DNA from: a bacterium | Lineage (GTDB): Bacteria > Vulcanimicrobiota > Vulcanimicrobiia > Vulcanimicrobiales > Vulcanimicrobiaceae | Length of the DNA: 64,000 bases | Direction of reading: 5' to 3' | Assembly: GCA_021832345.1 (NCBI GenBank) | Contig: JAKBKY010000001.1 | Span: 86,385 to 150,384, forward strand | In this document: in pieces, positions 2,704 to 6,657 of the stretch | Position numbering within the stretch: the stretch's first letter is position 1 | Layout of the letters: each line of letters starts with the position of its first letter | The notes under the pieces: generated by a model | What the model saw: the letters and a program-made list of their open reading frames with translations, nothing else | Databases searched by the model: none | What the model was told of the DNA's origin: nothing | Made by a program: the position numbers and the translations under genes

Positions 2704-3609
2704 TTAGGCCAGCTCGACGACCCGGGGCGCCAGGTGCAGCTCCCGCAGGAGGCGGCCGTAGTCCTCGGCCGTCACCGCCTCCGGGCGCTTGCCGAGCAGG
2801 GCGAGCAGCGCCGCCTCGACGACATTGGTTCCAAACGAACGCCCGGCGAAGTCCGGGGTGGTGGTGACGAGCAGGCGCACCCCGCGCTCGCGAAGCTCCT
2901 GCACGTTGGCGGCGGTAACGGTGTTCGTCAGGACGATCTTGCCGTCCAAGCGGTCGGGCATGAACTGGCGCATGAAGTGGAAGTCGCCGGCGATGATCTC
3001 GGCCTGCTCGTAGTACTGCGGATACTTGGGCGTCGGCGGCGCCTCTTGCTTCTTGCCGGTCGGGTAGAAGAACTGGAACGGCAACTTGCACGCGTCGGGA
3101 AGATAGCGCTGCGCCAACGCCTCGAACTCCGCGAGACCCCGTACCGGCTTATCCAGGTCGAGCGCAAAGATGAAGTCGCCGAAGAGCACATCCGCACCGG
3201 CATCGACGAGAGCCTGCGCCATGCCGAAGCGATCCAAGGCGCTTACCATCAGCACCTGCTTGCCGGCCAGTTCGATGCCGAGATCCTCGCGCAGAAAGCG
3301 CACCGCTTCGCGTTCGAGCGTATTCTTGAGCCCGCTTCCGTCGACGACCGGCGTGCGTTTGGCGGCTTCGAGCAGGCGCAGCCCGTCGCGCAAGGCGTAG
3401 CGCGTGCTGCCGGCATAGAGATAGACGTCGATGCCGCCCAGACCGATCGCATCCACCGTGCCGTCAAGTTCGCGCACCTTCGCGATGGCGGCGTCGAGTT
3501 TGCCGTCCATGCCGATGCGCGAGATATCAAACTGTTCTCCGAACCACTCGACCTGCACGTGATGGTCCCGGGTGCTGGAACCGAGTGAGACCGAAACGAC
3601 GCGCTTCAC
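2704..3609 (-). CDS. 'Quinate 5-dehydrogenase'-type protein of unknown real substrate
   Basis: A 301-residue protein beginning MKRVVSVSLGSSTRDH. It resembles a family in Deinococcus/Thermus-type bacteria that automated annotation calls quinate 5-dehydrogenase; that name has little behind it. Conserved-looking stretches are DAIGLGGIDVYLYAG, VVDGSGLKNTLERE and LMVSALDRFGMAQAL. I do not see a clear glycine-rich dinucleotide motif at the N-terminus. Its ATG overlaps the stop of the acyl-ACP-reductase-like gene by 4 bases, so translation is coupled. Last gene of a four-gene run with an SRPBCC protein and a class III aminotransferase, which argues for a shared pathway rather than quinate use. Function unknown. 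Confidence 0.75.
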   Translation of the reverse strand: MKRVVSVSLGSSTRDHHVQVEWFGEQFDISRIGMDGKLDAAIAKVRELDGTVDAIGLGGIDVYLYAGSTRYALRDGLRLLEAAKRTPVVDGSGLKNTLEREAVRFLREDLGIELAGKQVLMVSALDRFGMAQALVDAGADVLFGDFIFALDLDKPVRGLAEFEALAQRYLPDACKLPFQFFYPTGKKQEAPPTPKYPQYYEQAEIIAGDFHFMRQFMPDRLDGKIVLTNTVTAANVQELRERGVRLLVTTTPDFAGRSFGTNVVEAALLALLGKRPEAVTAEDYGRLLRELHLAPRVVELA

Positions 3610-4730
3610 GCCACCACCTGCGAGCGGCGCTCCGCGGCCGCAGCCCGTGTCGCCGCGATCGTTTCGGGAGTGATCGCCATATCAAAGGCCCGCATATCGG
3701 CAAGCGTAAAGCCGCAGCGTGTCGCCATCTCGTCCATCTCGACCACCTTCGCGAGATCGATGCCGCGCCCCAGCGTGTAACACTCAAAACGACGCTCGAG
3801 CGCCAGCACCATGGTCTCGCTCATGCACGCAAGCGCGGTGCGCGGCGGAAGGTTGAGGTCGAAGTCGCCCTTCGGTTCTCGAACGCGTGCGAAGTGCGGC
3901 GCTCCGGGGAGCAGCATATTCCCGCCCTCGGTAACCAAGACGTCGGGCCGTTCGAGCGCGACCCGCCGGCTTACGTCGTGCGGCAGCGAAAGCTCACAGA
4001 CGACCGTCCCGGTCTGCAGATCGGCCGGCTCGACGATCTCCTTCGTCGAGGAGGTCGCGGTGAGCACCAACTGCGCTCCTCGTACGGCTGCAGCGAGGTC
4101 GGTGGTAAACGACGACGAGCATGGCAGCGTCGAAGCGACCTCTTCGTGGAACTTGCGCAACCGCGTCTCGTTGCGCGCGACGAGGATCAGGTGGCGAACC
4201 TTCGGCGCGATCAACTTCGCGCAGGCCGAACCGATCGAACCCGTCGCACCGATAATCACCGCGGTGGCCGAAGCGACGTCGATGCCCATCTCCTGCGCGC
4301 CGCGAAAGAGGCTCGCGATGCCCGCCGCGATCGTCAGCGAGTTGCCGGTCGTCACCGGAATCGGCGAGCGTTGCGCAACGGTGACGCCGCCGTCGCCGAC
4401 GACGCCGGTGAAGGCGCCTAAGCCCGCGATCTGCGCGCCGAGCTCCACGCCGATGTCGATGGCCCGCAGGATGCGCGTGTAGACCTCCTCGCGCGGGAAG
4501 CTCATCATCTGCTCGGGGAGGAGCGGCGTGCCGACAAACCAACCTTCGGTCTGCCGCCCGTCGGGCGTACGCACACCCGTCACGTGCGCCACCGACCATT
4601 CCGGCATCCACTCCAAAATCTTGCGCATGATCGGCTCGCCCTTCCCCTTGGCTCCGGGTTCGTAGCGCTCGATGTCCTTCAAGGAGAGCGGGTGCATCAC
4701 GAAACAGAACTTCGGCAACGTCGAGCTCAC
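3606..4730 (-). CDS. Long-chain acyl-ACP-reductase-like Rossmann protein
   Basis: A 374-residue protein. Residues about 150-180 contain a Rossmann nucleotide motif (AVIIGATGSIGSACAKLIAP). The preceding segment GLGAFTGVVGDG followed by PVTTGNSLT parallels the ALGGFSS/FTTGN segments of cyanobacterial acyl-ACP reductase, and FCFVMHPLS near the N-terminus fits the same family. The cyanobacterial enzyme makes fatty aldehydes using NADPH. Whether this homologue uses acyl-ACP, an amino-acyl substrate or something else cannot be read from sequence. Both ends overlap neighbours by 4 bases (SRPBCC upstream, quinate-dehydrogenase-like downstream). Confidence 0.7.
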   Translation of the reverse strand: MSSTLPKFCFVMHPLSLKDIERYEPGAKGKGEPIMRKILEWMPEWSVAHVTGVRTPDGRQTEGWFVGTPLLPEQMMSFPREEVYTRILRAIDIGVELGAQIAGLGAFTGVVGDGGVTVAQRSPIPVTTGNSLTIAAGIASLFRGAQEMGIDVASATAVIIGATGSIGSACAKLIAPKVRHLILVARNETRLRKFHEEVASTLPCSSSFTTDLAAAVRGAQLVLTATSSTKEIVEPADLQTGTVVCELSLPHDVSRRVALERPDVLVTEGGNMLLPGAPHFARVREPKGDFDLNLPPRTALACMSETMVLALERRFECYTLGRGIDLAKVVEMDEMATRCGFTLADMRAFDMAITPETIAATRAAAAERRSQVVA

Positions 4731-5164
4731 GCGCGTTCGGCTTCCACTTTGAGGGCGGCTAACATCATCTCGCTGTTCTCACGCACCTTCTTCTGCAACG
4801 TCGGCCCGATCAACTCGGCCAGCGTCGGCACGCCGAAATCGTATTCGACGCCGAGCACCACATGCGTCTGCCCGTCACGCTCCTCGAAGGTCCACGCCCC
4901 TTCGAAGGTCTCGAGATCGCCTTCGAGCAGCTTGTAGTCAATCCGCAGACGCTCGTCATCGAAGCGGTCTTCTTCGATCCACTCGATCGGGGCCTCCTCG
5001 ACCAGCGTCTTCCAGCGCGTCAGGAGGTGGTCGCTGTGGCGTTCCAGCACCACGACCGCCTCAACGTCCGGCATGAACTCGGGGAAGCGTTCCTGCTCCT
5101 TGGCAAGTTCGTAGACGGTGCGGGCGGGAGCGGAGATCGCGATGGAAGTCTCGACGTACGGCAT
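4727..5164 (-). CDS. SRPBCC (START/coenzyme-Q-binding-like) ligand-binding protein
   Basis: A 145-residue protein covering one helix-grip SRPBCC domain. It begins MPYVETSIAISAPARTVYELAKEQERFPEFMPDV, the typical family opening, and ends with the long C-terminal helix. Members bind hydrophobic ligands or act as cyclases or aromatases. No signal peptide or membrane segment is present, so it should be cytoplasmic. It starts 27 bases after the aminotransferase stop, and its stop overlaps the next start by 4 bases. The context suggests it presents or cyclises a product of the neighbouring enzymes; that is inference. Confidence 0.85.
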   Translation of the reverse strand: MPYVETSIAISAPARTVYELAKEQERFPEFMPDVEAVVVLERHSDHLLTRWKTLVEEAPIEWIEEDRFDDERLRIDYKLLEGDLETFEGAWTFEERDGQTHVVLGVEYDFGVPTLAELIGPTLQKKVRENSEMMLAALKVEAERA

Positions 5165-5191
5165 CGTGAAGGCGTGCAGAATCCTCGTGGT

Positions 5192-6523
5192 TTACAACAG
5201 TCGACCGAGGTTCTGTCGGGCGGTGGACACCCCTGCCCGCAGCGCCGCGAGCGCCACCTCGATCTGCGCGGCGTCGACGATCAGCGGCGGCTCCAGGCGG
5301 ATGACGCGCTGCTGATTGAGCGTCCAGGCCGCCGTGACGCCGGCTTTGAGCATCTCGGGGATGATCCAGCCTCCGTAGCCTTCGCTGGTCAACTCGACGC
5401 CCACCAGCAGCCCCAGACCCCGCGCTTCGGCGATCACCTCGGGAAACTCGGTGGCGATCTGCCGGCATCCATCCAGCAACTGCGCGCCGCGCAGGCGAGC
5501 GTTCTCGATGAGCCCTTCGTCTTCGAGCACCTCCATCGCCGCCAGCGCCGCGGCGCACGCCAACTGATTGCCGCCGAAGGTCGAAGTGTGGAGCAGCGGC
5601 GCCTTCGCGTAGGCCGCATTCCAGGCGTGCGGGCGAGCGATGAAGGCTCCGACCGGCACCACGCCGCCCGAGAGTCCCTTGGCCAGCGTCATCACATCCG
5701 GCACCACGCCGTCGCGATCGCAGGCAAAGCGGTAGCCACAACGTCCAAGACCGGTCTGCACTTCGTCTGCGATCAGCAGCGCTCCGGTGCGATCGCAGGC
5801 CTGCCGGGCCGCCTGCAGATAGCCTAGCGGCGGCACGTTCACGCCGCCCTCGCCCTGCACCGGCTCGACGATGAACGCCGCCGCGCCCTCGAGTGCGGCT
5901 TCGAGGCCGTCCGACCGGCCGTAGGGCAGGTGCACCACATCGGCCAGCAAGGGACGAAAGCGCTCCTGGAAGGATTGGCGCCCGCTGATGGTCAGCGCGC
6001 CGAGGGTCTTGCCGTGGTAGGCGTCCTGCGTCGCCACGAACGTTGCGCGGCCGGTCGCGGCGCGGGCCAGCTTGATCGCCCCTTCCACCGCCTCCGTACC
6101 GCTGTTGCACCAGAAGGAATACTGCAGATCGCCCGGAGCCAACTCCGCGAGGCGCTTGGCGACGCGGCCCAGCAGCGGATTGAACATCGTCTTGCCGGAG
6201 AGCGCCATCTCGTCGAGCTGGGCGCGCACCGCCGCAATCACGCGCGGATGGCGATGCCCCAGCGTAAAGACGCCGTAGCCGCCGGCAAAATCCAGGTAGG
6301 CCTTGCCGCGAGCATCCCAGATGGTACAGCCCTGCGCGCGCACCTCCACCGGCGAGCCGGACATCTTCATCACCCGCGCCAGCGGCGGATTCACGTACCG
6401 CCGATAGTTCTCATAGGTCTCTTCGACCAGGTGCTGCGCAGCGGCCGCATCGTCGCGTGGTTCCTGTGCTGAAACCGGCGCATTATGACCCTGCAGCGCA
6501 TCCGGGGCGCCGGCCTCAATCAT
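5192..6523 (-). CDS. Class III PLP-dependent aminotransferase (omega-amino-acid type)
   Basis: A 443-residue fold-type I aminotransferase of the acetylornithine/ornithine/putrescine group. Visible are the cofactor segment LLIADEVQTGLGRCG and the catalytic lysine in MTLAKGLSGGVVPVGAF. Family members move terminal or gamma amino groups to 2-oxoglutarate or pyruvate; the substrate here is unknown. The open frame runs about 300 bases further upstream through repeats and low-complexity sequence, so ATG at 6523 (MIEAGAPD) was chosen. It is first of the run aminotransferase-SRPBCC-reductase-like-quinate-dehydrogenase-like. Confidence 0.9.
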   Translation of the reverse strand: MIEAGAPDALQGHNAPVSAQEPRDDAAAAQHLVEETYENYRRYVNPPLARVMKMSGSPVEVRAQGCTIWDARGKAYLDFAGGYGVFTLGHRHPRVIAAVRAQLDEMALSGKTMFNPLLGRVAKRLAELAPGDLQYSFWCNSGTEAVEGAIKLARAATGRATFVATQDAYHGKTLGALTISGRQSFQERFRPLLADVVHLPYGRSDGLEAALEGAAAFIVEPVQGEGGVNVPPLGYLQAARQACDRTGALLIADEVQTGLGRCGYRFACDRDGVVPDVMTLAKGLSGGVVPVGAFIARPHAWNAAYAKAPLLHTSTFGGNQLACAAALAAMEVLEDEGLIENARLRGAQLLDGCRQIATEFPEVIAEARGLGLLVGVELTSEGYGGWIIPEMLKAGVTAAWTLNQQRVIRLEPPLIVDAAQIEVALAALRAGVSTARQNLGRLL

Positions 6524-6565: not shown

Positions 6566-6657
6566 CCCACCCTGATGGGCGCTAGGCGCTCGTGACAGCC
6601 GTCGCATGCGCCGAGGTCCCCACGTCGCACCGGGCCCACCCTGATGGGCGCTAGGCG
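6566..6657. repeat. Pair of 23-bp direct repeats downstream of dusB
   Basis: The sequence cccaccctgatgggcgctag plus gcg occurs at 6566-6588 and 6635-6657, 69 bases apart. Each copy can fold as GCCCA-CCCTGA-TGGGC. The second copy contains the dusB stop codon, so the first looks like a duplicated gene end or a REP-like unit. Confidence 0.7.

Follow-up and report, generated by a model that had tools for sequence, protein, structure and literature searches.

Four tightly packed genes that together match no textbook pathway raise a simple question: what do they make? The genes occupy positions 2704–6523 of a 64,000-nucleotide stretch of Vulcanimicrobiaceae DNA, referred to herein as the window. 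An earlier reading of the sequence alone (the original prediction) had described them, correctly as to the lack of a textbook counterpart, as a coupled operon for a class III aminotransferase (AT), an SRPBCC protein, an acyl-acyl carrier protein (acyl-ACP) reductase-like protein and a 301-residue 'quinate dehydrogenase'-like protein. We infer, with slightly better than even confidence and from homology as to both chemistry and product, that the operon makes an alkylamine from an acyl thioester by way of an aldehyde, for use in a membrane lipid.

The four-gene operon is conserved

Listing and translation of the open reading frames (ORFs) confirmed four minus-strand ORFs over 2704–6523, in the order AT, SRPBCC, reductase and 301-residue protein. 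The first gene (5192–6523, minus strand) encodes a 443-residue class III pyridoxal phosphate (PLP) aminotransferase (PF00202, E = 1.2e-96) with an uncertain start: no stop interrupts the frame as far as 6826, and in most relatives homology begins at approximately residue 24–35 of the product of the 6523 start. After a spacing of 27 bases follows the gene for a small SRPBCC/START-fold protein of 145 residues, a possible hydrophobic-ligand carrier (4727–5164, minus strand; PF03364, E = 2.6e-19), and then two genes with GTG starts, one for a 374-residue acyl-thioester reductase (3606–4730, minus strand) and one for the 301-residue protein, a member of an uncurated conserved family (2704–3609, minus strand). 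At the SRPBCC/reductase and reductase/301-residue junctions the stop and start codons overlap by four bases each, with the sequence GTGA. The ORFs and all three junctions are as originally described.

All four genes occur in the same order in 15 of 20 long loci from Eremiobacterota, the name used here for the phylum of the window (Eremiobacterota/Vulcanimicrobiota); the other five loci either reach a contig edge or lack one or two genes within reach. The overlap between the reductase and 301-residue genes is exactly four bases in 24 of the 40 loci counted, one of which duplicates the locus of the window itself. Since gene order is kept and the overlap recurs in this manner, the coupling is more than chance, and we conclude that the four-gene operon is real, conserved and core.

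The reductase and aminotransferase resemble the two halves of PigE

The reductase is predicted to be an unfused PigE/TamH-type domain of the acyl-ACP reductase superfamily. Its residues 34–367 match the N-terminal half of the PigE model NF053554 in NCBIfam (E = 1.2e-56), and the C-terminal half of this model matches AT; at 192.6 and 418.5 bits, respectively, neither protein reaches the threshold of 850 bits for the fused model. In the Protein Data Bank (PDB) the best match of the reductase is the PigE structure 4ppm (E = 4.7e-33), with the cyanobacterial acyl-ACP reductase (AAR) structure 6jzq at 2.3e-16, and the model for the cyanobacterial enzyme, TIGR04058, scores 80.4 bits (E = 1.5e-22), short of its cut-off of 449.7. 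By these comparisons the reductase is nearer to PigE than to cyanobacterial AAR. The original label of acyl-ACP reductase-like therefore holds for the superfamily, but PigE is the closer relative.

Both putative active sites are intact. A Rossmann motif, GATGSIG, lies in the reductase (4230..4250, minus strand, coordinates computed), and its predicted catalytic residue, Cys302 (3825..3827, minus strand), is invariant in alignments across phyla. In AT, Lys282 of the motif LAKGLSGG (5678..5680, minus strand, position computed) is the residue that we take, from general knowledge of class III aminotransferases, to bind PLP. Cys302 is the predicted equivalent of the acyl-carrying cysteine of Synechococcus elongatus AAR (SeAAR, C294) and of PigE (C296; PMC8341465, PMC9594044). 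Experiments support a combined acyl-thioester reductase and transaminase role for PigE and TamH (PMC8341465, PMC9594044), and TamH, with a carrier partner, converts a C12 acid to the C12 amine (PMC9594044). The window likewise pairs an AAR-superfamily reductase domain, catalytic cysteine included, with a class III aminotransferase, encoded by separate genes rather than by a fusion. Because both active sites are intact, the operon most likely works as PigE and TamH do, in two polypeptides. We suggest that the reductase and AT are probably a split PigE/TamH in function, although not a member of that group by fusion or score. The aldehyde intermediate of the original prediction appears likely, given the match of the two proteins to the two PigE halves.

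For AT, the matches in NCBIfam comprised the putrescine aminotransferase models PRK11522 (NF008570; 433 bits, cut-off 612) and TIGR03372 (382 bits, cut-off 658.65) and the PigE model, all below cut-off. In a phylogenetic tree AT grouped with a protein from a third phylum (see below), a Thermaceae protein, the C-terminal half of PigE and Escherichia coli PatA (support 100/99), and ArgD/LysJ-like and GABA-AT-like paralogues fell outside this group. Identity between AT and the aminotransferase domain of PigE is at most 37%. Since AT is not separated from PatA in the tree, its substrate is not settled by sequence.

A PigE-like gene was also observed on a Leisingera plasmid (L194:4594-8781). This 4.2-kb gene combines a PigE-like reductase region with a class III aminotransferase and adjoins genes for an MMPL transporter and a lipoprotein-sorting protein, a possible undescribed cluster.

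The SRPBCC and 301-residue proteins

The best solved relative of the SRPBCC protein is TTHA0849 of Thermus thermophilus (2d4r, E = 1.6e-21), and W, E, D and N residues are conserved along the whole length of the two proteins; Thermaceae homologues are 30–34% identical to the window protein. The original prediction had allowed for a cyclase and a cyclic intermediate, for which no support was found.

Neither the 301-residue protein nor 23 aligned relatives match a curated family in Pfam or NCBIfam. Matches of the family in the PDB are at chance level, no relatives were found on plasmids or viral contigs, and a single-sequence AlphaFold model (pLDDT 41) was too low in confidence for a fold search. 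Homology between this protein and the reductase was rejected (hhalign probability 0.6%), and family and profile searches linked it neither to an NAD(P)-binding family nor to such a fold. The proposal of two reductase-like proteins thus stands for the 374-residue protein, as an acyl-thioester reductase, but not for the 301-residue protein. A family named 'quinate 5-dehydrogenase' has been listed as uncharacterised and of low variability, present in 33 of 33 Deinococcus genomes and also in Thermus (PMC9425974); from name and distribution, rather than from sequence comparison, we infer that this is the same family.

The gene families co-occur in three phyla

Within Eremiobacterota the 301-residue protein was found in 57 of 60 genomes (44 of 45 of good quality) and the reductase in 58 of 60 (45 of 45). 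One genome, G007, apparently lacks the 301-residue gene, probably owing to a contig break, since its match to the reductase ends at residue 302. Loci from Thermus were obtained by scanning genome contigs with TTHA0849, which returned Thermus genomes and one other bacterium. The 301-residue protein is present in all 15 genomes behind these loci and in 106 of 111 Deinococcota. The reductase was found in 15 of 15 genomes tested with the window protein as query and in 107 of 111 Deinococcota with a fused Thermus protein as query; two Deinococcota genomes (G133 and G137) lack both. In the third phylum, that of genome G074 and locus L058, 42 of 43 genomes carry the 301-residue protein, and in 18 of 20 loci an unfused reductase gene directly follows it, usually between coaX and greA. 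Examples of these pairs, whose order is the reverse of that in Eremiobacterota, are L222:5968-8085, L223:7354-9413 and L225:6834-8851. Because the pair occurs in opposite orders in two phyla, a functional link is indicated rather than frozen synteny. Rare co-occurrence elsewhere would have spoken against the association of the operon's genes; the families instead co-occur across three phyla.

Thermus genomes carry all four families. Clustering of the four genes, which had been expected there, was ruled out, as the genes are dispersed. An AT orthologue (approximately 45–49% identity) was found in Thermus- and Meiothermus-type genomes. In the Thermus parvatiensis genome G060 (L122:8974-10518) the reductase reading frame is interrupted close to its end and the AT sequence is spread across two frames, which may reflect sequencing errors or decay.

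As to the surroundings of the operon in the window, the upstream neighbour is presumably dus and the downstream genes greA and lysS, as judged by eye from the translations rather than by family search. An exact 21-base direct repeat, CACCCTGATGGGCGCTAGGCG, occurs at 6568–6588 and 6637–6657 in the intergenic region that separates the putative dus from the AT gene, where none is expected by chance; one copy contains the stop codon of the putative dus.

A probable connection with membrane lipids

In each of the five Deinococcota reductases examined, the N-terminal part is a PlsY-type domain (PF02660, E = 1e-24 to 4e-31), and the third-phylum genome G074 also aligns to the PlsY-reductase fusion. 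At the level of domain architecture, this fusion is a direct link of the reductase to phospholipid synthesis. In Eremiobacterota PlsY is encoded elsewhere, with one full-length match each in the 31 genomes searched. The Deinococcota 301-residue gene often precedes efp-accB-accC, with efp within reach in 24 of 35 loci and accC in 18. Fusions of a PlsY-like domain to an acyl-thioester reductase were recorded at L123:8365-10026, L126:8420-10207, L128:8197-9870, L129:3903-5651, L130:9258-10961 and L132:3773-5581; the fusion is near-universal in Deinococcota, and its PlsY loop (SAYNLGLEN and variants) looks atypical.

Knowledge of alkylamine phosphoglycolipids in Thermus and Deinococcus goes back to 1985 (references in PMC3398001); in that of T. 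thermophilus an iso-branched alkylamine is joined to glyceric acid through an amide bond (PMC3398001). In the literature searched, no genes were assigned to the amine of these lipids, and a 2022 paper goes no further than a pathway for fatty-amine attachment that Thermus 'probably' has (PMC9636437). The Meiothermus silvanus genome paper describes a phospholipid that co-migrates with an N-glyceroyl-alkylamine lipid (PMC3035272), and N-glyceroyl alkylamines have been reported from Moorella (PMC13274423). The 301-residue protein, the PlsY-fused reductase and AT are all present in Thermus and in a probable M. silvanus genome (G093), and Thermus has the SRPBCC family as well. A search of 37 genomes from the three phyla found no phosphatidylserine decarboxylase.

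Discussion

We propose a pathway whose first two steps draw on homology to PigE and TamH. With its intact active site and strong homology, the reductase would take an acyl group from acyl-ACP or acyl-coenzyme A onto Cys302 and release it, with NAD(P)H, as a fatty aldehyde. AT, possibly receiving the aldehyde by channelling, would then transaminate it to an alkylamine, a reaction that PigE and TamH perform in the same polypeptide as the reduction. More speculatively, the SRPBCC protein might hold or shuttle the hydrophobic aldehyde or amine, and the 301-residue protein might carry out the next pathway-specific step, perhaps by coupling the amine with a polar acid or by delivering it to lipid synthesis. 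The most economical product would be a membrane lipid with an N-acylated alkylamine, of the N-glyceroyl-alkylamine phosphoglycolipid kind found in Thermus and Deinococcus, and a housekeeping pathway is the best reading. A broader version, which we put forward tentatively and consider possible but doubtful, is that the four families are the alkylamine branch of N-glyceroyl-alkylamine synthesis in Thermus and Deinococcus, that Eremiobacterota and the third phylum produce this lipid, or one closely related to it, as a main membrane component, and that the 301-residue protein represents a new class of amine-using enzyme.

Several observations weigh against an alkylamine lipid as the product. AT is at least as close to putrescine aminotransferase as to PigE, and PatA is not separated from it in the tree. 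An AT orthologue was not found in four Deinococcota that keep the reductase and the 301-residue protein (G075, G079, G143 and G160), nor in G183 and G169, and thus does not accompany these two proteins wherever they occur, as an N-glyceroyl-alkylamine pathway would lead one to expect; such Deinococcota would either have to rely on another transaminase or make a product other than an amine. The Deinococcota genes are scattered, with no operon, and their reductases are approximately 30% identical to those of Eremiobacterota, joined to them by a long branch, with GANGVVA in the fused reductase where the window protein has GATGSIG. The lack of phosphatidylserine decarboxylase is only permissive, as the enzyme is also lacking in 8 of 14 control genomes. 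The polar lipids reported for Vulcanimicrobium alpinus are unidentified (PMC9758169), and a lipid structure is not known for any member of Eremiobacterota.

The reductase and 301-residue protein form the tightest pair across phyla, and some genomes keep both without an AT orthologue, as would be expected if the fatty aldehyde ended as an alcohol, ether, vinyl-ether lipid or hydrocarbon, with the 301-residue protein acting on the aldehyde and AT, merely co-transcribed, serving another purpose. We consider this unlikely, given that AT shares the operon in 15 of 20 Eremiobacterota loci, that its orthologue is present in Thermus and the probable M. silvanus genome, and that the reductase resembles the transaminase-feeding domain of PigE more than cyanobacterial AAR. 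A polyamine or diamine pathway, in which AT is of the putrescine type and the reductase yields an omega-amino aldehyde, would fit the rank of PRK11522 and TIGR03372 as best and third NCBIfam models of AT, and the place of PatA within its clade. It is nevertheless distinctly improbable in view of scores well under both cut-offs and of a reductase that sits with acyl-thioester reductases and, in Deinococcota, is fused to a lipid enzyme.

PigE and TamH themselves come from specialised-metabolite clusters, and PF03364, the family matched by the SRPBCC protein, is that of polyketide cyclases. Yet no PigD, carrier protein or polyketide synthase was seen in the operon or its conserved neighbours, and a metabolite cluster would not be expected at a near-universal core position between putative dus and greA-lysS, so that synthesis of an alkylpyrrole or tambjamine-like compound, or of a polyketide with an SRPBCC cyclase, has very little to recommend it. 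That the 301-residue protein is a true quinate or shikimate dehydrogenase, and the operon part of aromatic metabolism, is suggested by its database annotation only (PMC9425974) and is barely credible: neither PF01488 nor any other curated family matches it, profile comparison with E. coli YdiB gave E = 0.26 and an hhalign probability of 0.3%, indicating no relation to YdiB/AroE, and a weak Shikimate_DH (PF01488) match falls in the reductase instead. The original prediction was right to doubt the quinate label; it missed the correspondence to a split PigE/TamH and the core-gene status in Thermus with its link to membrane lipids.

With alkylamine synthesis as the preferred reading, the operon supplies testable gene candidates for the alkylamine of Thermus and Deinococcus lipids, and a role is suggested for the family labelled 'quinate 5-dehydrogenase', which evolves slowly and is probably important. 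If the reading is true, unusual amine lipids are predicted in Eremiobacterota, a phylum from which a first cultivated member was reported only in 2022 (PMC9758169).

Among known systems, the PigE (prodigiosin) and TamH (tambjamine) fusions share with the operon a catalytic-cysteine acyl-thioester reductase and a class III aminotransferase, acting by reduction and then transamination, but the window has two separate genes, SRPBCC and 301-residue partners and a phylum-wide core position. Cyanobacterial AAR (6jzq) is alike in sequence family, catalytic cysteine and Rossmann motif, whereas the partner in the window is an aminotransferase and the operon contains no deformylating oxygenase. TTHA0849 (2d4r, START superfamily) is approximately 30–34% identical to the SRPBCC protein and, unlike it, does not adjoin the other three genes in Thermus. 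The PlsY-AAR fusions of Deinococcota have the same reductase superfamily, invariant active-site AC and ET residues and the 301-residue family in their genomes, but differ in the extra N-terminal PlsY-like membrane domain, an identity of approximately 30% and an altered Rossmann motif. The N-glyceroyl-alkylamine lipids of Thermus and Deinococcus, finally, require a fatty amine, and Thermus has all four families, although in scattered positions.

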